Source of the DNA: Methylocella tundrae
GTDB taxonomy: Bacteria > Pseudomonadota > Alphaproteobacteria > Rhizobiales > Beijerinckiaceae
Reading direction: 5' to 3'
Assembly: GCF_038024855.1 (NCBI RefSeq)
Contig: NZ_CP139089.1
Location: forward strand, 3,499,501-3,563,500
Length of the DNA stretch: 64,000 nucleotides
Shown: positions 31,857 through 43,158 of the stretch, one piece after another
Layout of the letters: every line of letters begins with the position of its first letter
Position numbering within the stretch: the first letter of the stretch is position 1
Translations under genes and position numbers: made by a program
Notes under the pieces: model-generated
Database searches by the model: none
Told to the model about the DNA's origin: nothing
What the model saw: only the letters and a program-made list of their open reading frames with translations

Positions 31857-31946
31857 GGAGAGGTGGCAGAGTGGTCGAATGCACCGCACTCGAAATGCGG
31901 CATAGGCGCAAGCCTATCGGGGGTTCAAATCCCTCCCTCTCCGCCA
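31857..31946 (+). tRNA. tRNA-Ser(CGA)
   Basis: 90-nt class II tRNA. Acceptor arms GGAGAGG (31857-31863) and CCTCTCC (31936-31942) pair fully, discriminator G, and CCA is encoded (31944-31946). Anticodon arm ccgca-ctcgaaa-tgcgg gives anticodon CGA (serine, UCG codons). A long variable arm (taggc gcaa gccta) and the TPsiC loop ttcaaat complete the serine-type fold. Confidence 0.97.
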
Positions 31947-31994: not shown

Positions 31995-33728
31995 TCAATC
32001 GGTCCGCAAATCGCCCGATTGAGCTCCGGGAGCGCCTTCCTGCACTTTTCTATAGCGATAAGCCAGTTGCGGCCTTGTAAGGCCCAGCGCTTTGGCGGCC
32101 TTGCTCAGATTTCCGGCCGCTCGCTCCACAGCGCGCGCGATCAGTTCGTTTTCGAACGACTCGAGTTCGAATTTGCTGTCCAGCAGACGGTCCAAAGCGC
32201 CCGTATCGTGCCGCGCGCCGCCATCGTCGCGTTTCGGAATGAGCAATCCGTGATTTGAGAGCCCGTAAATGCGAGGATTGCGCTCGTCGATTGGCGAGGT
32301 CAGATAGGCTACGTCCAACGGTCCCCGATTCGGCGCCATGATGATGGCGCGTTCGATCATGCTTTCCAACTCGGTCACATTGCCGGGAAAATCATGGGTC
32401 AGAAGATAGCCGACAGCCATCTCCGACACGCCTGTTATCTTTTTGCCGTAACGACGGGAAAAGACGTCCAGAAAATGACGGATGAGCAGAGGCAAATCGG
32501 TCCGACGCTCGCGTAGCGGAGGGACCACGATGGGAAACGTCGTCAGACGATAGTAAAGATCTTCGCGGAACGATCCATCGCGCATGGCGTCGATCAGCCG
32601 CGCATTCGATGATGCAACGACGCGAATGTGGACCGGCCTGGGTTGGGCGCCGCCAACCCGTTCAACCTCGCCGGTCTGCAAAACCCGAAGAAGCTTTGTT
32701 TGCGCCCGCAAATCGAGCCGATGGACGTCTTCGAGGAAAAGAGTTCCCCCGTTCGCGCGTTCGATGCGGCCGCTGCGCGAAACCTGCGGCCCGCTGGCAG
32801 AGGTGCTTTTCTCGACGCCAAAAAGATCGACATCGAGCTGGTCGCACGAAAGCGCGGCGCAGTTGAAGGCGACAAATGGTTTCGAGCATCTCGCGCTCAG
32901 CTTGTGCAAAAGCCGCGCGCAGCTTTTCTTGCCGGCGCCGGGTTCCCCGATGAGCATCACTACGGCGTCGGTTCGCGCCACCTTGTCCACCATATGCATC
33001 ATCGCCACAAACCCCGCGGATGCGCCGACCATGCGATCGTGCGGCCAGCCGCCGGGATGGTCAGGCTCTCCACAGACGGAGGCCCAGGACGAGCCGGCCT
33101 CGGCCTGGGTGTCCGCGAGGTCAAAGCCCTGGTGCAGATCGTCGCGAACCGCATCGTCCCATTGATCGGCCGGCTTGCCGATAATACGGCAATGGGCGGC
33201 GCCGGTCGCGCGGCATTCCACCTCCCGATAGAGCACAGGAAGTCCCATATAGGCGCTGGTGAAGGCCGAAGCATAGCCAAGCAGCGCCCAACAGACCGGT
33301 TCGGCGCTGATGCCATAGGCATGGAGATGAGCGTCGACCTCGGCCGAGTTTCGCCAGATCCATTCTCCCGCATAAACGTCCGTTTCAGGATCGACATCGA
33401 GCAGAACCGGCTCCACTGCGACCATCCCTTCAAGCGCGTGGAGCCCTGGTCCGATCATGAACGACTCGCGAATCCCCATGTCGGGCTTCGTCCGGCGTGC
33501 GAGCGCCGCGTCGGCCGCTCCCGACGCATGGCCCATCCGCGTGATCAGGCCCCGAGCGACCTCTATCCCGAAAGTGTCGATGAGCTCTCGCCGGAGACTC
33601 GCGAAGGCCGTCAAGTGCAGCATCAGCATGCGCTGGCCCTCGAGCCAGATGCAGCCCTCTTCTGGATTGAAGCGAAGACGCGCGGATAGATGGCCGATGT
33701 CGACGCCGACCGTGGTTGAGCTGTCCAT
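31995..33728 (-). CDS. dmpR: XylR/DmpR-type aromatic-sensing regulator with degenerate AAA+ core
   Basis: Divergent from dmpK and the obvious local regulator of phenol catabolism. 577 residues: XylR_N and V4R sensor domains (roughly 1-210; GYASAFTSAYMGLPVLYREVEC), AAA+ domain (about 235-460) and a C-terminal Fis-type helix-turn-helix (NLSKAAKALGLTRPQLAYRYRK). The AAA+ core departs from sigma-54 activators: the GAFTGA loop after LFGVEK is STSASG with one extra residue (about 308-313), Walker A is GEPGAGKK, and Walker B reads LFLED instead of LFLDE. The DFREDLYYRL-type arginine-finger region is retained. It may therefore not drive sigma-54 polymerase, or may act by another route. ATG 33728; a GTG lies one codon upstream. 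Confidence 0.88.
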   Translation of the reverse strand: MDSSTTVGVDIGHLSARLRFNPEEGCIWLEGQRMLMLHLTAFASLRRELIDTFGIEVARGLITRMGHASGAADAALARRTKPDMGIRESFMIGPGLHALEGMVAVEPVLLDVDPETDVYAGEWIWRNSAEVDAHLHAYGISAEPVCWALLGYASAFTSAYMGLPVLYREVECRATGAAHCRIIGKPADQWDDAVRDDLHQGFDLADTQAEAGSSWASVCGEPDHPGGWPHDRMVGASAGFVAMMHMVDKVARTDAVVMLIGEPGAGKKSCARLLHKLSARCSKPFVAFNCAALSCDQLDVDLFGVEKSTSASGPQVSRSGRIERANGGTLFLEDVHRLDLRAQTKLLRVLQTGEVERVGGAQPRPVHIRVVASSNARLIDAMRDGSFREDLYYRLTTFPIVVPPLRERRTDLPLLIRHFLDVFSRRYGKKITGVSEMAVGYLLTHDFPGNVTELESMIERAIIMAPNRGPLDVAYLTSPIDERNPRIYGLSNHGLLIPKRDDGGARHDTGALDRLLDSKFELESFENELIARAVERAAGNLSKAAKALGLTRPQLAYRYRKVQEGAPGAQSGDLRTD

Positions 33729-33731
33729 CAC

Positions 33732-34134
33732 CGCTCGCCCCCGATGACGGCGAGCGCCCTCAAGCCCGGCATTACCTTCATCGATTCACTCCCGCAGCAT
33801 GTTATTTTTCTACCCGCTACTATGAGGGCGCCGCCGGCGAATTACAAATCCTTAGCTCAAAGATGCGGCTGTTCATTGTCCTACGCGCGCCTCTTCATCA
33901 GATGATGAAAGCTGCTGCGATGCAGCGTCATCAAATGCTTAGACCCGCGCTCCAAAACAGGCTGGCGGATCGCCGTCGAGATGTCCGTGCTGTGCCTTAA
34001 AGCGCTGTTTTCACGACACAATCGAAAATAGCTGCCAGTGATATTCATTTTTTTTCCTTGTTGATTGAACCGGAAGGCTCGCCGCCGCATCATCGTCCCG
34101 CTCGCATCAATGTTGTGCGACAGGGAGGATTGAA
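33732..34134. promoter_or_regulatory. Divergent control region dmpR / dmpK
   Basis: About 400 bp, relatively AT-rich. A TTCATC-agat-GATGAA inverted repeat (33894-33909) is followed by gctgc-tgcgat-gcagc (33911-33926) and a related tcatcaaatg half-site, a plausible upstream activator site cluster 200-240 nt before dmpK. I find no good TGGCAC-N5-TTGC sigma-54 promoter on the dmpK side. GGGAGG (about 34122) is the dmpK ribosome site. Confidence 0.45.
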
Positions 34135-34479
34135 ATGGCGGACCACCGATGGTCGGCTGCTGCCGAACACGGCGCGCCAATGCGCGCCGCCAGCATCTCA
34201 AAATATGAGCGCGAGGATGATGGTGCGACGCTGGATCTAGCCCGTCGCTACATCCGCGTCGTTGGCGTGAGGTGTGGATTCATCGAGTTTGAGTTCACCA
34301 TCGCTGATCCAATGCTGACTATCGAGCTCATCATGCCGCCCAGCGCATTTGATGAGTTCTGCCGCGCACAAGGCGCCAACATAAGCGCGACCGACGATGT
34401 CGAACTGGCGTTCGCTCGGCTGCGGGAGCGGAGCGCGGGCCAGTCGAAGACCGCGAGCACAACCACAAGCAAAAATTAA
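34135..34479 (+). CDS. dmpK: Phenol hydroxylase accessory subunit (P0)
   Basis: Small (114 residues) component of multicomponent phenol hydroxylases, reported to help assemble or iron-load the oxygenase and not needed for turnover. The core RYIRVVGVRCGFIEFEFTIAD and MLTIELIMPPSAFDEFC matches the DmpK/PhK family. The N-terminal 35 residues are extra compared with shorter relatives. First gene of the dmpKLMNOP-QB operon, 15 nt before dmpL. Confidence 0.88.
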   Translation: MADHRWSAAAEHGAPMRAASISKYEREDDGATLDLARRYIRVVGVRCGFIEFEFTIADPMLTIELIMPPSAFDEFCRAQGANISATDDVELAFARLRERSAGQSKTASTTTSKN

Positions 34480-34494
34480 GAGGAGGACGACGCA

Positions 34495-35505
34495 ATGGCG
34501 CTTGAGATCAGAACCAGTACCGTCCGGCAACGGCGACAGACTTTCTCCAATGTGGCTCGCCGGCTTGGCGCCGACAAGCCGGGGTCCCGTTACGAGGAGG
34601 CGTTGTACGACCTCCAATCCGAAGTGAACTTCCACTATCGGCCAACCTGGGATCCGGCGCACGAACTGTTCGACAAGAGCCGGACGAAAATCAGCATGGC
34701 CGATTGGTACCAGCTGAAAGATCCCCGGCAGCTCTATTACGGCACTTACACCATCCAGCGGGCCAGAATGATGGAGGCGGTCGAGAAGAACTTCGCCTTC
34801 GCGGAAAAACGCGGGCTGCTTTACTCGTATGATCCAGAGTGGCGGGAGGTGATCCGCTTCTATCTGCTGCCGCTCCGTCATGTTGAGTGGGGCGCGAACA
34901 TGAACGCCTGCAATATGGTTGACAAGGGCTACGGCGTCGCAATCACCCAGCCCGCAATGTTCGCCGTTACGGATCGCCTGGGGATTGCGCAGATCATCAG
35001 CCGCATCGGCCTCGCCATGGGGGGCGCCGGCGCGTTGGACCAGGCCAGGGAGCGTTGGATTACGGCGCCCGAATGGCAGCCGATGCGCCGGCTCGTGGAA
35101 GACACGCTCGTCATCGAGGATTGGTTCGAGCAGTTCGTCGCCCAGTTCCTGAGCCTTGACGGATTGCTCTATCCGCTGGTCTACGGTCAATTCGACGCTG
35201 CGGGCCTGCAACATGGCGCCGGCGCCCTCTCGATGCTCGTTGAATTCATGGTGGACTGGCAGGATGACACCGCCAAATGGGTCGACGCTGTGCTGAAACG
35301 CGCCGCCAGCGAGTCGGCCGCCAACCGGCAGTTGATCGCCGGATGGCATGAGGAATGGATTGAGCGCTCCCGCGCCGCTCTCGCGCCGCTTGCGCAAAAG
35401 GTGCTTGGGCCGGCCGCTGAAGAGGCGTTGTCCTCTGTGCAAGCGGCGCTCGAGAACAGGGCGGACCGGTTGGGCGTCCGACTTTCCACGGAGATGGCGG
35501 CATGA
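34495..35505 (+). CDS. dmpL: Phenol hydroxylase oxygenase beta subunit (P1)
   Basis: Structural subunit of the (alpha-beta-gamma)2 oxygenase; resembles the diiron subunit fold but lacks the ligands. 336 residues with the family's QRRQTFSNVARRLGADKPGSRYEEALYDLQ start, YGTYTIQRARMMEAVEKNFAFAEKRGLL, and the AGALSMLVEFMVDWQDD segment. AGGAGG precedes ATG 34495. Overlaps dmpM by 4 nt. Confidence 0.95.
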   Translation: MALEIRTSTVRQRRQTFSNVARRLGADKPGSRYEEALYDLQSEVNFHYRPTWDPAHELFDKSRTKISMADWYQLKDPRQLYYGTYTIQRARMMEAVEKNFAFAEKRGLLYSYDPEWREVIRFYLLPLRHVEWGANMNACNMVDKGYGVAITQPAMFAVTDRLGIAQIISRIGLAMGGAGALDQARERWITAPEWQPMRRLVEDTLVIEDWFEQFVAQFLSLDGLLYPLVYGQFDAAGLQHGAGALSMLVEFMVDWQDDTAKWVDAVLKRAASESAANRQLIAGWHEEWIERSRAALAPLAQKVLGPAAEEALSSVQAALENRADRLGVRLSTEMAA

Positions 35506-35774
35506 GCAGCGAAGTCTCGATCAGCTTGCAGAATACAGACGACGGGCGAGGGATCATCGCCGCCATCGTTGCGGACAATCCGAAGGCGAAGGTCAGCAGC
35601 TATCCGGCGATGACGAAAATCGACTGTCCCGACCGCTTGGTGATGAATCGGTCCACGATAGAGCAGCAACTCGGGCGCGAATTCGATCTCCATGAGCTGA
35701 ACCTCACAATGATCAGCATTTCGGGAAACGTCGACGAGGACGACGACCGATTGCTGCTCATGTGGAATTCCTGA
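35502..35774 (+). CDS. dmpM: Phenol hydroxylase regulatory/coupling protein (P2)
   Basis: Cofactor-less effector protein of 90 residues of the MmoB/DmpM family that binds the oxygenase and couples electron transfer to oxygen activation. Recognised by GRGIIAAIVADNPKAKVSSYPAMTKI and the EFDLHELNLTMISISGNVDEDDDRLLLMW end. ATGA overlap with dmpL. Confidence 0.95.
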   Translation: MSSEVSISLQNTDDGRGIIAAIVADNPKAKVSSYPAMTKIDCPDRLVMNRSTIEQQLGREFDLHELNLTMISISGNVDEDDDRLLLMWNS

Positions 35775-35809
35775 ATCAATGAGGACTCGGCACTTTTAGG
35801 AGAAATCTG

Positions 35810-37348
35810 ATGAACGTCGTCAACCCCAATGAACGCCCTCGCAAGCTCAATCTCAAGGAACGCTACGCCATTCTGACGCGCGGCCTCGACTGGCAGCCGA
35901 GCTATCAGGACAAGAAGAAGATCTTTCCCTTCACCGACTATGAGGGAATCAAGATCCACGACTGGGACGCATTCGAAGATCCCTTCCGCCTGACGATGGA
36001 CGCCTACTGGAAGTATCAGGCCGAGAAGGAGCGCAAGCTCTACGCCGTCATCGACAGTTTCGCGCAGAACAATGGACAGATGAATATTTCCGATGCGCGA
36101 TATATCAACGCGTTGAAAATCTTCATCACCGCCGTGTCGCCGCTCGAATACGCCGCGCATCGCGGTTTCGCGCATCTCGGCAGGCATTTCGAGGGAGTTG
36201 GTCCGCGCGTGGCCTGCCAGCTTCAGGCGATCGACGAACTCCGGCATGTGCAGACGCAGATTCACACGATCAGCCATTTCAATAAGTTTTTTGATGGTCT
36301 CCACGATCCAATGCATATGTACGATCGCGTTTGGTATCTTTCGGTGCCGAAGTCGTTTTTCGAAGACGCGATGACTGCGGGACCGTTCGAGTATATCACC
36401 GCAGTCTCGTTCAGCTTCGAATATGTTCTGACCAGCCTGTTGTTTGTGCCGTTCATGTCGGGCGCCGCCTATAACGGCGACATGGCGACGGTGACCTTCG
36501 GCTTCTCGGCGCAGTCTGATGAAAGCCGGCATATGACGCTTGGGCTGGAGATCATCAAATTCATGCTGCAGCAGGACGAGGCCAATGTGCCGATCGTTCA
36601 GAAATGGATCGACAAGTGGTTCTGGCGCGGATACCGCCTGCTCTCCATTGTCGCGATGATGATGGACTACATGCTTCCGAAAAAGATCATGTCATGGAAG
36701 GAGGCGTGGGAAATGTATTTCGAGCAGGGCGGGGGCGCGCTGTTTCAGGATTTGTCCCGCTACGGCATCCGTCTGCCAAAATATCATGAGGTCGCGAAGG
36801 CTGAGAAGGATCATTACAGCCATCAGGCCTGGAGCACTTTCTACCAATATTCTCACGCCGCGGCGTTTCACACCTGGACGCCGAGCGAAGACGAGATGGC
36901 CTGGTTCGCAGAAAAATATCCCCAGAGCTTCGACCAGCTCTACCGGCCGCGCTATGAACATTGGGCCAAGGCAGCGAAAGCGGGCGAGCGCTTCTACAAT
37001 AATGGGCTGCCGCAACTCTGCCAGGTCTGCCAGATTCCGACGTTTTTCACCGAACCGGGCGATCCGACGCGGATAGCCACGCGGACGACGACATACAATG
37101 GCGAAAGATACTATTTTTGCTCTGACGGATGCCACGACATCTTTGAAGATGAGCCCGAAAAATATGTTCAGGCCTGGTTGCCTGTGAGCCAGATCTTTCA
37201 GGGCAATTGCGGCGGCGCGACCGTGCCCGAGGTGCTCGACTGGTATCATTTGAACCAGGGCGCCGATAATCTGGACTATGTCGGATCGCCTGATGAGAAG
37301 CTCTGGGAAGAATGGCGGGCCGAACGCAAGCGCGTCGCCACCCCCTGA
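35810..37348 (+). CDS. dmpN: Phenol hydroxylase oxygenase alpha subunit (P3), diiron
   Basis: Catalytic subunit that hydroxylates phenol to catechol. 512 residues. The six diiron ligands can be placed by family pattern: E113 (LEYAAHRG), E143 and H146 (AIDELRHVQTQ), E204 (FEYVLTSL), E238 and H241 (SDESRHMTLG). The C-terminal YHS-type zinc-binding region (CQVCQIPTFF, YYFCSDGCHDIFEDEPEKY) is intact. AGGAGA upstream of ATG 35810. Closely resembles the Pseudomonas DmpN/PhN line rather than toluene or methane monooxygenases. Confidence 0.97.
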   Translation: MNVVNPNERPRKLNLKERYAILTRGLDWQPSYQDKKKIFPFTDYEGIKIHDWDAFEDPFRLTMDAYWKYQAEKERKLYAVIDSFAQNNGQMNISDARYINALKIFITAVSPLEYAAHRGFAHLGRHFEGVGPRVACQLQAIDELRHVQTQIHTISHFNKFFDGLHDPMHMYDRVWYLSVPKSFFEDAMTAGPFEYITAVSFSFEYVLTSLLFVPFMSGAAYNGDMATVTFGFSAQSDESRHMTLGLEIIKFMLQQDEANVPIVQKWIDKWFWRGYRLLSIVAMMMDYMLPKKIMSWKEAWEMYFEQGGGALFQDLSRYGIRLPKYHEVAKAEKDHYSHQAWSTFYQYSHAAAFHTWTPSEDEMAWFAEKYPQSFDQLYRPRYEHWAKAAKAGERFYNNGLPQLCQVCQIPTFFTEPGDPTRIATRTTTYNGERYYFCSDGCHDIFEDEPEKYVQAWLPVSQIFQGNCGGATVPEVLDWYHLNQGADNLDYVGSPDEKLWEEWRAERKRVATP

Positions 37349-37380
37349 ACAACACTTACAAAAAATCGAGGAAACGTCGC

Positions 37381-37740
37381 ATGACCACTGTAGCGATAGG
37401 ACCTTACGCGTTCCCCCCGCGTGATCGGGTCGAAAATTTCCACGGGCTTCAACTCGTGCATTTCTTGTGGGAAAGGCATCTGATGTTTGCGTCGCCGGTC
37501 ACAGCGCCCCTATCCGCCGCGACGCCGTTCTCTGCGGTTATCGGCGAGGTTCTGCCAATGCTTTACAGCAAGCATCCTGACTTCGCCGCGATCGACTGGA
37601 ACGCCGTGGAGTGGGACTGCGACGGCGTCCCGTTCACTCCTGATCTGGCGCTGACCCTGGCCGATCTCGGAATTGGCCACAAATCGCTGTTGCGGTTCCG
37701 CACGCCTGGCCTCGAGGGCTTGGCCAAAGCGAACTTCTGA
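37381..37740 (+). CDS. dmpO: Phenol hydroxylase gamma subunit (P4)
   Basis: 119-residue small oxygenase subunit. Family pattern YAFPPRDRVENFHGLQLVHFLWERHLMFASP at the start and VLPMLYSKHPDFAAIDW with a C-terminal LADLGIGHKSLLRFRTPGLEG. ATG 37381 is preceded by GAGGAA and lies 32 nt after dmpN. Confidence 0.94.
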   Translation: MTTVAIGPYAFPPRDRVENFHGLQLVHFLWERHLMFASPVTAPLSAATPFSAVIGEVLPMLYSKHPDFAAIDWNAVEWDCDGVPFTPDLALTLADLGIGHKSLLRFRTPGLEGLAKANF

Positions 37741-37753
37741 GCGGATCGTCGCC

Positions 37754-38806
37754 ATGACCTATCAGCTCACAATCGAACCGCTCGGGGAGACAATCGCTGT
37801 CGAGGACGGCCAGACCATGCTCGACGCCTGCTTGCGCGCGGGCGTCTGGCTTCCGCACGCCTGCGGGCACGGTCTGTGCGGAACGTGCAAAGTGGAGGTC
37901 CTCGAGGGTCAGGTGACGCATAACGAAGCGTCTTCCTTCGCGCTCATGGACTTTGAGCGCGATGAAGGAAAAGCGCTCGCCTGCACCGCCACGCTCGACG
38001 CCGACACCATCATAGAAGCCGAGATCGACAACGATCCCGACGCGCGCCGGATCCCGATCCGCGATTTCAAGGGCGTGATCGAACGCGCGCAAATGCTGGC
38101 CGAGGATGTTCTCGGCCTCTGGCTCAAAGTGCCGGGAGAGGGAGTTGCGTTCCAGGCCGGGCAATATCTCGCCGTATCGGCGCCCGGAGTTGAAGGCCCG
38201 CGCTCTTTCTCGATTGCGAGCCCCCCCTCGCAACCCAACTGCATAGAGCTGCATATCCGTATTGTGCCTGGAGGCAAGGCGACGACGTGGCTGCGCCAAA
38301 ATGCGGCGCCGGGTATGCCGCTTGACTTCGCCGGTCCCTACGGCCGTTTCTACGTGCGCCATTCGGTCGCCCTGCCGAGATTGTTTCTTGCGGGGGGCTC
38401 CGGCCTTTCGAGCCCCCAGAGCATGATTCTGGATCTGCTTGAACGCGGCGAAACTCAGCCGATCACGCTTGTCCACGGAGCGCGGAGCGCGGACGGCCTC
38501 TACCATAGCGCGCTGTTTCGCGAGCTTGCCGAACGCCACGGGAATTTCCGTTACATTCCCGCGGTTTCAGGCGAGACCGATGGATGGAAGGGCGAAACCG
38601 GCTTCGTGCATGAAGTGATCCATCGGCTATACAACGGGCGTTTCGATGGCAACCAGGCCTATCTGTGTGGTCCGGCGCCGATGATCGACGCCTGCATCAC
38701 GACGTTGATGCGGGGCCGCCTGTTCGAACAGCACATCTTTACCGAAAAGTTCCTGACGCCGGCGGACGCGGAAAAGGCGCGCTCGCCGCTTTTCAGGAAG
38801 ATCTGA
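37754..38806 (+). CDS. dmpP: Phenol hydroxylase reductase (P5), [2Fe-2S] / FAD / NADH
   Basis: Transfers electrons from NADH to the diiron oxygenase. 350 residues: plant-type [2Fe-2S] domain with C37, C42, C45 and C77 (HACGHGLCGTCKVEV, ALACTATLD), then ferredoxin-NADP reductase-like FAD domain (GPRSFSIASPP) and NAD domain (LFLAGGSGLSSPQSMI, AYLCGPAPMIDACI). ATG 37754 is 13 nt after dmpO. Confidence 0.96.
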   Translation: MTYQLTIEPLGETIAVEDGQTMLDACLRAGVWLPHACGHGLCGTCKVEVLEGQVTHNEASSFALMDFERDEGKALACTATLDADTIIEAEIDNDPDARRIPIRDFKGVIERAQMLAEDVLGLWLKVPGEGVAFQAGQYLAVSAPGVEGPRSFSIASPPSQPNCIELHIRIVPGGKATTWLRQNAAPGMPLDFAGPYGRFYVRHSVALPRLFLAGGSGLSSPQSMILDLLERGETQPITLVHGARSADGLYHSALFRELAERHGNFRYIPAVSGETDGWKGETGFVHEVIHRLYNGRFDGNQAYLCGPAPMIDACITTLMRGRLFEQHIFTEKFLTPADAEKARSPLFRKI

Positions 38807-38809
38807 CAA

Positions 38810-39178
38810 ATGGCCCCGCTCCTCATCCAAGTCCTCAACGTCGACCAGCCGTTTCGCTGTGGGCCTGACGAAACGGTGTTGCGGGCGCTCGCGCCCATCC
38901 ACCACGACCGGATCGGTTCGGGCTGTCACGGCGGCGGTTGCGGGGTCTGCCGCATTCGCGTGCTGCAAGGCGATTATGTAGTTGGTTGCATGAGCCGGGC
39001 GCACGTCAGCATCGAGGAAGAAGCTTCGGGATTGACGCTGGCGTGCCGCACCTGGCCGCGCTCCGACCTCGCCGTCGAGCCGGTCGGCAAGCTGCCGGCG
39101 CGGCTGATGCGCCGCTTCCGCCTGCTGCCGCCAATGAACGATGATCGGGTCCAAAGTCCCGACGACAGGGAGAAATGA
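38810..39178 (+). CDS. dmpQ: [2Fe-2S] ferredoxin that reactivates catechol 2,3-dioxygenase (copy 1)
   Basis: XylT/DmpQ-type ferredoxin, 122 residues, whose relatives re-reduce the oxidised iron of catechol 2,3-dioxygenase after inactivation by substituted catechols. Cluster ligands in GSGCHGGGCGVCRIRV and a distal Cys in LACRTWP. Starts 3 nt after dmpP and overlaps the dioxygenase gene by 4 nt (ATGA). A second copy is at 46903-47262. Confidence 0.9.
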   Translation: MAPLLIQVLNVDQPFRCGPDETVLRALAPIHHDRIGSGCHGGGCGVCRIRVLQGDYVVGCMSRAHVSIEEEASGLTLACRTWPRSDLAVEPVGKLPARLMRRFRLLPPMNDDRVQSPDDREK

Positions 39179-40125
39179 ATATGGCGGTCATGAGATTAGG
39201 CCATGTAAAGCTGCGCGTTCTGTCGATCGACGACGCGATCGATCATTACACCAATACGCTCGGCCTGCTTGAGACGCATCGCGATCCCGACGGCTCCGTC
39301 TATCTGAAGGGATGGGACGAGTGGGACAAATATTCGGTTGTTCTGTCGCCGTCCGACCGGGCGGGCCTTGAGCACGTCGCTTTCAAGGTCGAAAAGGATG
39401 CCGAGCTTGACGCCTATCGTTCGCGCATCGAGGCTCGCGGGATCAAGGTGATGGAGCTGAAGCCGGGCGCTCTGCCATTCTGCGGCCGCGCGCTTCGGTT
39501 CCTGCTACCCAGCGAACATGAGTTCTTCCTATATGCCGAGAAGGACTTCGTCGGTAAGGCGGTGGGCGCGCTTAATCCGGAGCCTTGGCCGGATGGATTG
39601 AAGGGGGCCGGCGTTCATTGGCTCGATCACGTGATGCTCATGTGCGAGGTCGATCCGGCCCGCGGCATGAACAAGGTCGCCGAGAATGTCGCTTTTTTCC
39701 GGGACGTTCTTGATTTCGGGCTGTCGGAACAGGTGCTGGCGGGTCCTGAGGGCGAGGTGCAAGCCGCAGCCTGGATGTTCTGCACGACCACGCCGCACGA
39801 CATTGCTTTCGGCGCGGGGCCGCGCGGCGGCCTGCATCACATCTCTTTCTTTCTGGAAGATTGGTCCGACATCCTTAAGACTGCGGACATCCTCGCCAAG
39901 CGCCGCGTTAAGGTCGACGTGACTCCGCAGCGTCACGGAATCACGCGAGGCGCGACGACTTACTTCTTCGATCCCTCCGGCAATCGCAACGAGACCTTCG
40001 CAGGGCTTGGCTACCTCACCCAAAAGGACATGCCGACGATCACCTGGAACGAGGAACACCTGTGGCGCGGAATTTTCTATCATTCAGGCGATATTGTCGG
40101 CGACTTTCTCGGCGTCTACACCTGA
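39175..40125 (+). CDS. dmpB: Catechol 2,3-dioxygenase (copy 1)
   Basis: Extradiol ring cleavage of catechol to 2-hydroxymuconic semialdehyde. 316 residues, two vicinal-oxygen-chelate domains. Iron ligands by family pattern: H152 (LDHVMLM), H221 (GLHHISFFLEDW) and E273 (SGNRNETFAGLGY); also the conserved QRHGITRG block. Last gene of the hydroxylase operon. Differs clearly from the second copy at 45980-46900, so not a recent duplication. Confidence 0.96.
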   Translation: MNMAVMRLGHVKLRVLSIDDAIDHYTNTLGLLETHRDPDGSVYLKGWDEWDKYSVVLSPSDRAGLEHVAFKVEKDAELDAYRSRIEARGIKVMELKPGALPFCGRALRFLLPSEHEFFLYAEKDFVGKAVGALNPEPWPDGLKGAGVHWLDHVMLMCEVDPARGMNKVAENVAFFRDVLDFGLSEQVLAGPEGEVQAAAWMFCTTTPHDIAFGAGPRGGLHHISFFLEDWSDILKTADILAKRRVKVDVTPQRHGITRGATTYFFDPSGNRNETFAGLGYLTQKDMPTITWNEEHLWRGIFYHSGDIVGDFLGVYT

Positions 40126-40207: not shown

Positions 40208-40405
40208 TCAGGACGGTTTCGGCGGCGCTCCCTTGAGGACGCCGCCGGCGGCGAAATGATGGGCGGGCACTTCGCGGATGATGATGCGCACGGCCTCGCG
40301 CGGCGCCTTGATCGAGGAGACGATCGCCTCGGTCACTGCCGCGACCAGTCGTGACTTATCCTCGTAGGTGCGTCCTTCGATCAGGGTGATCTCGACGATT
40401 GGCAT
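40208..40405 (-). CDS. dmpI: 4-oxalocrotonate tautomerase (2-hydroxymuconate tautomerase)
   Basis: 65-residue protein with the catalytic N-terminal proline exposed after Met removal (MPIVEITLIEGRTYEDKSRLV), converting 2-hydroxymuconate to its keto form. ATG 40405 is fixed by this requirement; the upstream extension in frame is ignored. Last gene of the minus-strand meta-cleavage operon, 10 nt after the decarboxylase. Confidence 0.93.
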   Translation of the reverse strand: MPIVEITLIEGRTYEDKSRLVAAVTEAIVSSIKAPREAVRIIIREVPAHHFAAGGVLKGAPPKPS

Positions 40406-40415
40406 GAAGCGTTCC

Positions 40416-41186
40416 TCAAGCGACGACGGAGAAGGCGACGGCGCCGAGACTCTGGAATGTCGTGCGCACATATTGGCCGGGCGTCAACGGATAGGCGGCG
40501 GTGGCGCCGCCCGCCATGACGATGTCGCCCGGCTCCAATCGCTCGCCGGCGCGTGCGACAAGACGCGCGGCGGAGACAAGAGAGCGGATCGGATTGCCGA
40601 GTATCGCGGCGGATGAGCCGATCTGCACCGGGCGGCCGTCGACCTCCATCACAATGCCGAGGTTGGCTACGTCCGTCGACGCCTTCGCCCACGATCCCAC
40701 ATAGAAGCCGGAAGAAGACGAATTGTCGGCGACGACGTCCGGCAGAGCGAATTTGAAGTCGCGATAACGACTGTCAATAATCTCCATCGCTGGAGCCACC
40801 GCCTCTACGGCCGCGAGCGCTTCGGCCGCCGAGACGTCGCCTTCAAGCGGCTTGCCGATAATATAGGCGATCTCCGGCTCGACGCGCGGATGGACATAAC
40901 GAGACCGGACGAGGTCTCCGCCCTCGATCAGCCGCATGGCGTCGGTGAGCCGGCCCCAGATAATCTCCGAGACGCCGACCTGTTGCATTTTCGCGCGGGA
41001 GGTCAACCCCATCTTGTATCCCGCGCGCCGTTCGCCGCGCGCCCGTCGCCGGGCGAGAGACAGCGCCTGGATCGCATAGGCGTCTTCGACCGAGAGGCCG
41101 GGCAGGCTTTCGGTCAGTTGCGGGATGGCGATGGCGGTGGACGCCGCCTCGTCGACAATGGTCGCGAGTTCCGCGAGGCTGGTCAT
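40416..41186 (-). CDS. dmpH: 4-oxalocrotonate decarboxylase
   Basis: Decarboxylates 2-oxo-3-hexenedioate to 2-hydroxypenta-2,4-dienoate, usually in complex with the hydratase DmpE. 256 residues, MhpD/FAH-like fold: [27 protein letters not shown], metal ligands in [11 protein letters not shown], and [28 protein letters not shown]. The RYRDFKF and SSSSG features separate it from the hydratase paralogue at 43162. Overlaps the aldolase stop by 4 nt. Confidence 0.93.
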
Positions 41187-42217
41187 GCGGCTTCTCCGCG
41201 ATTCTTGAGGATGTCCAGCGCGACGTCGACAATCATGTCTTCCTGGCCGCCGACCATGCGCCGCTTGCCGAGTTCAGTGAGGATGTCGCGCGTATCGACG
41301 CCATAGAGTTTCGAGGCGTTTTCCGCATGGCGCAGGAAGCTCGAATAGACGCCGGCGTAGCCGAGCGAAAGCGACTCGCGGTCCACCCGCACCGGACGGT
41401 CCTGCAGGGGCCGCACGAGATCGTCCGCCGCGTCCATCAACATGTGCAGGTCGCAGCCGGTCTCGATTCCCATGCGGTCGAGCACCGCGATCAGAGCTTC
41501 GAGCGGCGCGTTGCCGGCGCCCGCGCCCATGCCCGCCAGCGAAGCGTCGACGCGTACGGCGCCTGCCTCGATTCCCGCCACGGCGTTGGCGACGCCAAGC
41601 GTCAGATTGTGGTGGGTGTGCACGCCGATTTCCGTCTCGGGCTTCAGCGCGCCGCGCACCGCTTTTACGCGCTCGGCGTACTGGTTCGGCAGCAGCGCGC
41701 CAGCCGAATCCGTCACATAGACGCATTCGGCGCCATAGCTTTCCATCAGCAGCGCCTGCTCGACCAGCTTCTCCACCGGCGCCATGTGCGCCATCATCAA
41801 AAAGCCGACCGTATCCATGCCAAGCTTGCGGCCCGCCTCGATATGCTGGCGCGAAACGTCCGCTTCCGTGCAATGGGTGGCGACCCTGACGGAACGCGCG
41901 CCCGCCTCATAGGCGCGCTTGAGATCATGCACGGTGCCGATGCCCGGCAACAGCAGCACGGTGATGCGCGAGAACGTGCATTCGCCGGCGACCGCTGCGA
42001 TCCATTCGGCATCGTCATGCGCGCCGAAGCCGTAGTTGAAGGTCGAGCCGGTGATGCCGTCGCCGTGGCTGATCTCGATGGCGTCGACATGGGCGCGGTC
42101 GAGCGCACGGGCGATGGCGCGCACCGCGTTAAGGCTGTACTGGTGACGCACTGAATGCATGCCGTCGCGCAGCGTCACGTCCTGGACGTAAAGCTTGTTC
42201 GGATTGATGCGGGCCAT
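41183..42217 (-). CDS. dmpG: 4-hydroxy-2-oxovalerate aldolase
   Basis: Splits 4-hydroxy-2-oxovalerate to pyruvate and acetaldehyde and channels the latter to DmpF. 344 residues from ATG 42217: [20 protein letters not shown] at the barrel start, metal-binding [15 protein letters not shown], and a C-terminal DmpG communication domain ([24 protein letters not shown]). A longer in-frame reading upstream runs through dmpF and is not real. Start overlaps the dmpF stop (TGATG). Confidence 0.96.
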
Positions 42218-43158
42218 CACGCGGCCTCCTTCTGCAATTGCTTGGCCGCCCAATGGTCGGCAGAGACCAGAGCCGCGGAGGTCATGATGTCGAGATTGCC
42301 GGCATAGGCCGGCAGGTAATGCGCCGCGCCTTCCACCTCGAGCATGATCGTGGTTTTCAGGCCGGAGCACAGGCCGACGCCGGGAATGCGCACCGGCGCG
42401 TTGTCGCCGATATTCTCGAACTGCACCTTCTGCTTCAGGCGGTAGCCGGGCACATATTTCTGCACGGCGGCGACCATGTCGAGGATCGACTGCTCGATGG
42501 CTTCCCTGCTGCCGCCCTGCGACAAAGTGAACACGGTGTCGCGCATGATCAGCGGCGGCTCGGCGGGGTTGAGAATGATGATCGCCTTGCCATGTTCGGC
42601 GCCGCCGAGGATCTCGATCGCTTTCGAGGTCGTCTCGGTGAATTCGTCGATGTTGGCGCGGGTGCCGGGACCGGCGGATTTCGACGAGATCGAGGCGACG
42701 ATCTCGCCCCAAATGACGCGGTCGGTGGCGCGGCGCACGGCGCGCACCATAGGGATCGTCGCCTGGCCGCCGCAGGTGACCATGTTGATATTAGGCTCAT
42801 CGATATTGGCGTCGCCATTGATCGCCGGAATGGTGAAGGGGCCAATCGCCGCCGGGGTCAGGTCGATCACCTTCTTGCCGTCGGTCTGGAGAAGCGCGTT
42901 GTTGTGGACATGGGCGCCGGCCGAAGTGGCGTCGAAAACGACTTGAATGTCCTTGTATTCGGGTATCTTCCGCAACCCGTCTATGCCCTCGTGGGTGACG
43001 GGAACCTTCAAACGAGCGGCTCTCGCCAGCCCGTCAGAGTTCGGATCTATGCCGACCATCGCGCCCATCTCGAGGTTTTTGGAGGTGCGCATGATCTTGA
43101 TCATCAGATCCGTGCCGATATTGCCCGATCCGATGATCGCGCATTTCACTTTGGCCAT
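42217..43158 (-). CDS. dmpF: Acetaldehyde dehydrogenase (CoA-acylating)
   Basis: Oxidises channelled acetaldehyde to acetyl-CoA with NAD. 313 residues; nucleotide-binding [17 protein letters not shown], catalytic Cys in [17 protein letters not shown], and the dimer-interface region [21 protein letters not shown] near the end. Lies 3 nt after the hydratase gene and overlaps dmpG, as expected for a channelling pair. Confidence 0.96.

Follow-up and report, generated by a model that had tools for sequence, protein, structure and literature searches.

A DmpR-type phenol regulator of Methylocella tundrae with a degenerate AAA+ motor and a predicted exit from sigma-54 control

The regulator gene at 31995..33728 (minus strand) of the window, the 64,000-nucleotide stretch of Methylocella tundrae DNA analysed here, is predicted to encode a phenol-responsive protein of DmpR/XylR descent that is very unlikely to remodel sigma-54 polymerase. 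On balance, the sequence comparisons favour a protein that has given up this activity and would recruit sigma-70-type polymerase at dmpK. By descent the regulator is of the DmpR type, and by the sequence-based tests applied here it is not a functional sigma-54 activator. A sequence-only reading had proposed a DmpR lineage that left sigma-54 control. The comparative evidence favours that proposal: loop 1 and the ATPase residues were lost together in one clade, and no -24/-12 element is seen before dmpK, in contrast to GAFTGA-bearing relatives. It also refines the proposal, since the sigma-54 gene itself is retained in the genomes of the lineage. The proposed exit is supported by motif co-segregation, a single clade, purifying selection and a kept operator, together with the lack of a -24/-12 score of at least 9 in clade loci and of a GAFTGA-type partner of the regulator's own family. 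The presence of rpoN, weak promoter hexamers, distant operators and the small number of clade promoter loci were counted against it.

The gene is an uninterrupted frame of 577 aa whose translation contains GEPGAGKK, DLFGVEKSTSASGPQVSRSGR and GGTLFLEDVHRL. The predicted protein consists of an XylR_N and V4R sensor, a degenerate AAA+ domain and a Fis-type HTH. The sequence-only reading had named these three domains, and Pfam found all of them above the cut-offs (XylR_N, residues 14-113; V4R, 125-185; Sigma54_activat, 234-400; AAA_lid_14; HTH_8, 522-560). The sensor domain (residues 14-185) lies at 33174..33689 and the HTH (residues 522-560, Pfam and alignment) at 32049..32165, both on the minus strand; the latter retains the recognition segment LTRPQLAYR, which is also present in GAFTGA-type relatives. 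The best solved relative is phenol-bound DmpR (6iy8), which was also the best Foldseek match of a structure model (mean pLDDT 75.9, pTM 0.48); the model agrees in fold and is uninformative as to function. Against the MobR profile (NCBIfam NF041906) the protein scored 462.5 bits, below the curated cut-off of 999.

The motifs of the AAA+ motor were read from the translation and from alignment, all on the minus strand. Walker A, GEPGAGKK (residues 261-268; 32925..32948), has K268 in place of Glu, and Walker B has its DE order swapped to E333-D334 (32727..32732), so that the GKK ending and the ED pair described earlier were both confirmed. The GAFTGA loop is replaced by a loop 1 remnant, STSASGPQVS (residues 308-317; 32778..32807). 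Alignment with DmpR, a check that had been suggested, was made against the solved chain 6iy8_A; GAFTGA is missing and the loop holds one residue more, and the extra residue reported beside STSASG is borne out by a loop length of 10 as against 9 in 72/72 GAFTGA-type rows. One further change, absent from the sequence-only reading, was found at the sensor II position, where the Arg of GN-x-R-EL in GAFTGA-type proteins (59/59 of the homologues of this type listed) is T452 (32373..32375; alignment).

Several canonical motifs are thus broken, as they might be in a decaying pseudogene or a sequencing artefact, but the intact frame, the recurrence of the syndrome in a second genus and throughout a 61-member clade, the low dN/dS and the invariant sensor residues make that explanation very improbable. 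A Methylocella tundrae locus of 99% identity (L014) has the same motif residues, and the orthologue from another genus of the family (genome G386, locus L041; about 79-80% amino acid identity) shows the same syndrome. With the open frame, these rule out a frameshift or sequencing error, the earlier suggestion having been that resequencing might restore GAFTGA. Comparison with the G386 orthologue gave, for the whole gene, dN 0.130 and dS 1.794, and for the AAA+ part, dN 0.106 and dS 2.266; with dS close to saturation, only the low ratio counts. As judged from this comparison, the regulator is under purifying selection.

Homologues were collected as the best 120 of the 840 proteins past the search threshold, the query included. 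Among these 120, 61 lack GAFTGA and 59 carry GAFTGA, GAYTGA or near variants, and the other motifs are never mixed between the two sets. All 59 have Glu after the Walker A Lys, DE in Walker B and Arg at sensor II. In the 61, the residue after the Walker A Lys is K (57), R (3) or N (1), Walker B reads ED (60) or DD (1), and the sensor II position holds A (52), T (6), V (2) or S (1). Three further clade members were added by a profile search (P0121, P0122 and P0127), P0122 having Leu after the Walker A Lys; at the same position two further GAFTGA-type rows deviate, P0126 with Gly and L046 with Ser. Loop 1 is six residues long in 51/64 members and 8-11 in the other 13.

A first tree included the trait columns. 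The second was made from the AAA+/HTH part with the trait columns dropped and four outgroup rows, by a quick search with long branches flagged and no bootstrap. In it the 64 members form one clade (SH-aLRT 100) nested inside the 72 GAFTGA-type rows, although the backbone forks above the clade are weak (support 4 to 92). With one nested clade, the syndrome is most likely derived and of single origin. One clade member, P0032, is filed under a eukaryote data source and is most likely bacterial contamination.

Other parts of the motor were kept. The Walker A Lys is retained in 60/61 clade members (Arg in one), the first arginine finger in 61/61 and the sensor I Asn in 50/61; at the second finger, 41 members have Arg, 19 Lys and one Gln. 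The hydrolysis machinery has probably been dismantled, and retention of the Walker A Lys and first arginine finger suggests that the fold, and probably nucleotide contact, persist. The Walker B DE and the sensor II Arg, which is R227 in PspF, have roles in ATP hydrolysis (PMC4132715). The nearest change that has been studied is PspF E108D, which is impaired as an activator on duplex DNA and reduced in ATPase activity but still able to activate on pre-opened DNA (PMC4132715). Because the Walker A Lys and first arginine finger are kept and E108D is active on pre-opened DNA, a nucleotide-dependent, even a residual sigma-54, role is possible.

The input and DNA-binding parts are conserved in sequence, both in the residues of the phenol/zinc pocket and in the HTH. 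H97, W125, C146, E169, C172 and C180 are invariant in 61/61 clade members. We take their MopR counterparts to be H106, W134, C155, E178, C181 and C189. In DmpR, the phenol hydroxyl lies between His100 and Trp128, and the zinc ligands are Cys and Glu residues (PMC7264223). The printed His100, Trp128 and Glu172 of that article are offset by 3 from the numbering of the regulator and the printed Cys numbers by 5, so that equivalence of the Cys residues rests on the alignment to 6iy8.

The regulator gene was said to face a phenol hydroxylase operon, and it does lie divergent from a dmpKLMNOP-ferredoxin-catechol 2,3-dioxygenase cluster on the plus strand. The first gene encodes a dmpK-type phenol hydroxylase subunit (34135..34479; PF06099). 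It is followed by dmpLMNOP-type phenol hydroxylase genes (34495..38806; ORFs and Pfam) at 34495-35505, 35502-35774, 35810-37348, 37312-37740 and about 37754-38806, the last start being placed by eye, and then by a ferredoxin (38810..39178) and a catechol 2,3-dioxygenase (39175..40125; TIGR03211, above cut-off). The divergent arrangement of regulator and dmp genes is conserved in G386. The lower part of a meta-cleavage pathway is represented at 40208-42712, on the minus strand and pointing towards the phenol operon, by genes of the tautomerase, FAA-hydrolase-fold and DmpG-like aldolase types; allowing up to 3 mismatches gave no operator match in that region. On the other side, a tRNA-Ser(CGA) at 31857-31946 lies directly downstream of the regulator gene, with beta-ketoacyl synthase and enoyl-ACP reductase genes beyond it, and is a possible insertion point of the catabolic cluster.

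Promoters of the -24/-12 class were sought in 600 bp of upstream sequence with a fixed 5-nt spacer and a maximum score of 10. A strict GG/GC version of the scan scored the Acinetobacter dmpK promoter 5/10 and so missed it; a relaxed version scored it 9/10 and was used for the final counts. The earlier remark that no good -24/-12 promoter precedes dmpK agrees with a best score of 7/10, GG being absent, for that spacer. The best score was 7 in all three clade loci. Scores of at least 9/10 were obtained in 0/3 clade loci as against 25/54 GAFTGA-type loci, and in 1.4% of 1140 mononucleotide shuffles. Where the scanned side faces dmpK/L, such scores were reached by 3/3 GAFTGA-type loci (9, 10 and 9) versus 0/2 clade loci, a small comparison. 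With other spacers, the locus of G525, conspecific with the window, reaches 8/10 (4-nt spacer, GG absent). The pWW0 xylR-xylS intergenic region, which we take to be a known sigma-54 promoter region, scores 8, so that the dmpK score of 7, taken alone, leaves room for sigma-54.

The 54 GAFTGA-type loci, all of which match a loose GAFTGA pattern, are non-independent (some genomes or genera contribute more than one, and L075 and L076 are near-copies), and their target gene is not necessarily on the scanned side. Repeat loci were left out of the count (L008, L014, L026, L041, L042, L060, L061 and L062), as were L023 and L024 (37-38% identical, from MAGs labelled Bacteroidetes and Rhodothermales). 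Within the clade, L050, from Sphingopyxis, makes a poor comparison since its divergent gene looks truncated. This gene, for a TonB receptor, adjoins the clade member on plasmid pDB-4 of Sphingopyxis sp. DBS4 (region L050 13537-16683). Its annotation covers the operator region while the Pfam match begins only at residue 213 of 485, and it looks truncated with a spurious annotated start.

Candidate sigma-70-type promoters were found on both sides of the intergenic region. A weak one before dmpK reads TTGAAC-N17-CATCAT (34065..34093, plus strand; TTGAAG-N17-CATAAT in G386). One before the regulator, recognised by eye in the alignment, reads TTGTAA-N17-CATAGT (33819..33847, minus strand) and is identical in hexamers and spacing in G386. 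A generic promoter scan called none in the window and one in G386, on the dmpK side, with 0.6 expected by chance. An alternative CACAAT (within 34015-34029; TATAAT in G386) lies nearer the operators and makes the dmpK start a candidate only. The conserved hexamers before both genes are weak leads.

A predicted operator or upstream activating site, TTCATCAGATGATGAA, matches the consensus at 33894..33909 (site 1), and a weaker copy with 9/12 consensus positions lies 33 bp from it at 33927..33942 (site 2). Site 1 presumably resembles the XylR upstream site. Paired upstream activating sites, a trait of sigma-54 enhancer-binding proteins, are thus found here with a weak second site. G386 and the Sphingopyxis plasmid locus also have a good site (11/12) accompanied, again 33 bp away, by a weak one; the weak sites score 8 and 9 and each is tied with another weak match nearby, so that the offset common to the three loci is suggestive only. 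At the Acinetobacter mobR-dmpK locus, where GAFTGA is present, two copies of TTCATCAAATCATGAA stand 41 bp apart; the predicted operator is accordingly of the type of a DmpR-like activator locus. In the 4.42-Mb genome of the window, TTCATCANNTGATGAA with at most 1 mismatch has one match, which is site 1, upstream of dmpK. That single match, and the divergent arrangement kept in G386, speak against a regulator that acts elsewhere while another factor runs dmpK. Such a regulator is improbable even though the Sphingopyxis clade member has other catabolic genes, and not a dmp operon, as its neighbours.

Measured from the candidate dmpK start, the sites are some 165 and 198 bp upstream, a distance which is enhancer-like and unusual for sigma-70 activation without DNA bending. 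The main rival reading, to which we give roughly one chance in five, is a phenol-relieved repressor that occupies the operators and, until phenol binds, shuts its own promoter and that of dmpK by blocking or looping. It would account for the loss of known activation residues with the DNA-binding and sensor parts kept and for operators placed between two divergent genes, and GAFTGA-less Caulobacter NtrC can repress, at hvyA and sciP (PMC10274813). Neither operator, however, overlaps the candidate core promoters, themselves weak, and operators of similar sequence are seen at activator loci, for instance Acinetobacter mobR-dmpK.

We regard it as most probable that the regulator, gated by phenol, activates a sigma-70-type promoter from its retained operators; that the effect is activation rather than repression is what we infer. 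Binding of phenol would still reorganise the oligomer. The AAA+ domain may then serve on the paired sites as a scaffold that perhaps binds ATP but does not hydrolyse it, and this scaffold would recruit or stabilise ordinary sigma-70-type polymerase at the dmpK promoter. Put more broadly, and with somewhat less than even confidence, this entire lineage of one-component aromatic sensors may have turned a sigma-54 ATPase motor into a ligand-gated, non-hydrolysing scaffold, giving remote-enhancer activation of sigma-70 polymerase that involves neither sigma-54 nor ATP hydrolysis.

The genome of the window (4.42 Mb in 3 contigs) carries one rpoN; of its 13 PF00158 matches, nine are strong, with E 6e-50 or lower. 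That rpoN had been lost was ruled out as the cause, the gene being present in 13/13 genomes tested, three of which hold a clade member. XylR_N proteins number one in the genome of the window (G000), one in G386 and two in G525, and a hetero-oligomer with a second DmpR-type protein is unsupported given the single XylR_N protein in G000 and G386. The regulator might still work with sigma-54, either by using its altered loop 1 at a promoter that departs from the consensus or by assisting another sigma-54 activator of the cell. The presence of rpoN and of eight other strong PF00158 proteins, the kept operators and the ability of PspF E108D to engage sigma-54 polymerase and activate on pre-opened DNA (PMC4132715) are in keeping with this. 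It nevertheless has a low probability, about that of a regulator acting elsewhere: loop 1 of the clade varies in sequence and in length (6 to 11 residues), unlike a binding surface, and the regulator has ED, no sensor II Arg, no -24/-12 site and no second XylR_N regulator in its genome.

Two other regulators were noted in these genomes. L046 (G525 C89:9788-11515) is the second XylR_N regulator of G525, with GAFSGA and GKS, and is missing from the genome of the window. L009 (G000 C3:956199-956690) is an NtrX-like regulator without GAFTGA (ELFGVEGKDGAGRKIG) in which GKE and DE are retained; from its loop and its place near an NtrC-like gene (L002), we take it to be NtrX.

With DmpR, MopR and XylR the regulator shares the XylR_N/V4R sensor with its phenol and zinc residues, the AAA+ fold, the Fis HTH and palindromic upstream sites, and its dmpKLMNOP operon is divergent as in the GAFTGA-bearing G001, G043 and Acinetobacter. 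It differs from them in lacking GAFTGA and the sensor II Arg, in having GKK for GKE and ED for DE, and in that no -24/-12 promoter was found at the dmpK of the window. Among alphaproteobacteria, the NtrC proteins of Rhodobacter capsulatus and Caulobacter are likewise GAFTGA-less and reported to act at sigma-70 promoters (PMC10274813), but are response regulators and not ligand sensors. The R. capsulatus protein has to bind ATP but not to hydrolyse it, and in Caulobacter growth in defined medium depends on the Walker A Lys and Walker B Asp of NtrC; the same source states that VpsR (printed VspR) works without ATP and that Caulobacter NtrX has no GAFTGA (PMC10274813). Brucella-type NtrX (5m7n) and L009 are comparable in their AAA+ domain, without GAFTGA in L009, and unlike the regulator in that L009 keeps GKE and DE and NtrX is a response regulator. 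HupR, TyrR, DhaR and VpsR are also GAFTGA deviants. Their sensor domains differ from that of the regulator; TyrR retains DE and the GN-x-R motif, and HupR acts from a remote site with IHF. TyrR, DhaR and HupR are called sigma-70 dependent (PMC3162934), and the statement of the sequence-only reading that GAFTGA-less members can act with sigma-70 thus has published examples in TyrR and HupR (PMC3162934) and R. capsulatus NtrC (PMC10274813).

Two further articles were set aside as precedents, PheR being an IclR-family repressor (PMC13273656) and the promoter in PMC9195938 a consensus sigma-54 promoter. Among the matches listed in a search of open-access titles and abstracts, a scope outside which most subscription journals fall, no GAFTGA-less XylR/DmpR-type regulator was found. 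The clade offers a natural set in which a sigma-54 motor was apparently dismantled once and kept under selection, with intact relatives that share its sensor, operator type and operon layout. It makes testable both the role of an AAA+ domain once ATP hydrolysis is gone and the shift of a promoter from sigma-54 to another sigma factor while the enhancer stays.

Among the Hyphomicrobiales genomes sampled, the lineage is rare. A survey of Hyphomicrobiales, which had been recommended, gave a clade member in 1/397 genomes of the order sample, the window's own (E 1e-150). Clade members were found in 1/385 genomes of the class sample (profile search, E 1e-100) and in 3/149 genomes, of two species, in the family sample. 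In one sphingomonad family the profile search (E 1e-200) found none in 397 genomes, which does not show absence since the protein search returned named sphingomonad members. In three of the four genome searches at most 3 candidates were scored per genome, and the genomes were samples of larger groups; G042, tried as a sampling centre, belongs to a family of 7 genomes. Among the matches listed most members are metagenomic, and those with names are from Methylocella tundrae, Sphingopyxis sp. DBS4, Novosphingobium sp. Fuku2-ISO-50 and a Sphingomonadaceae MAG. The Sphingopyxis member is on a plasmid near FAD monooxygenase and chlorocatechol genes. It and the Novosphingobium member carry the label 'sigma-54-dependent Fis family transcriptional regulator', which is probably wrong for the clade.
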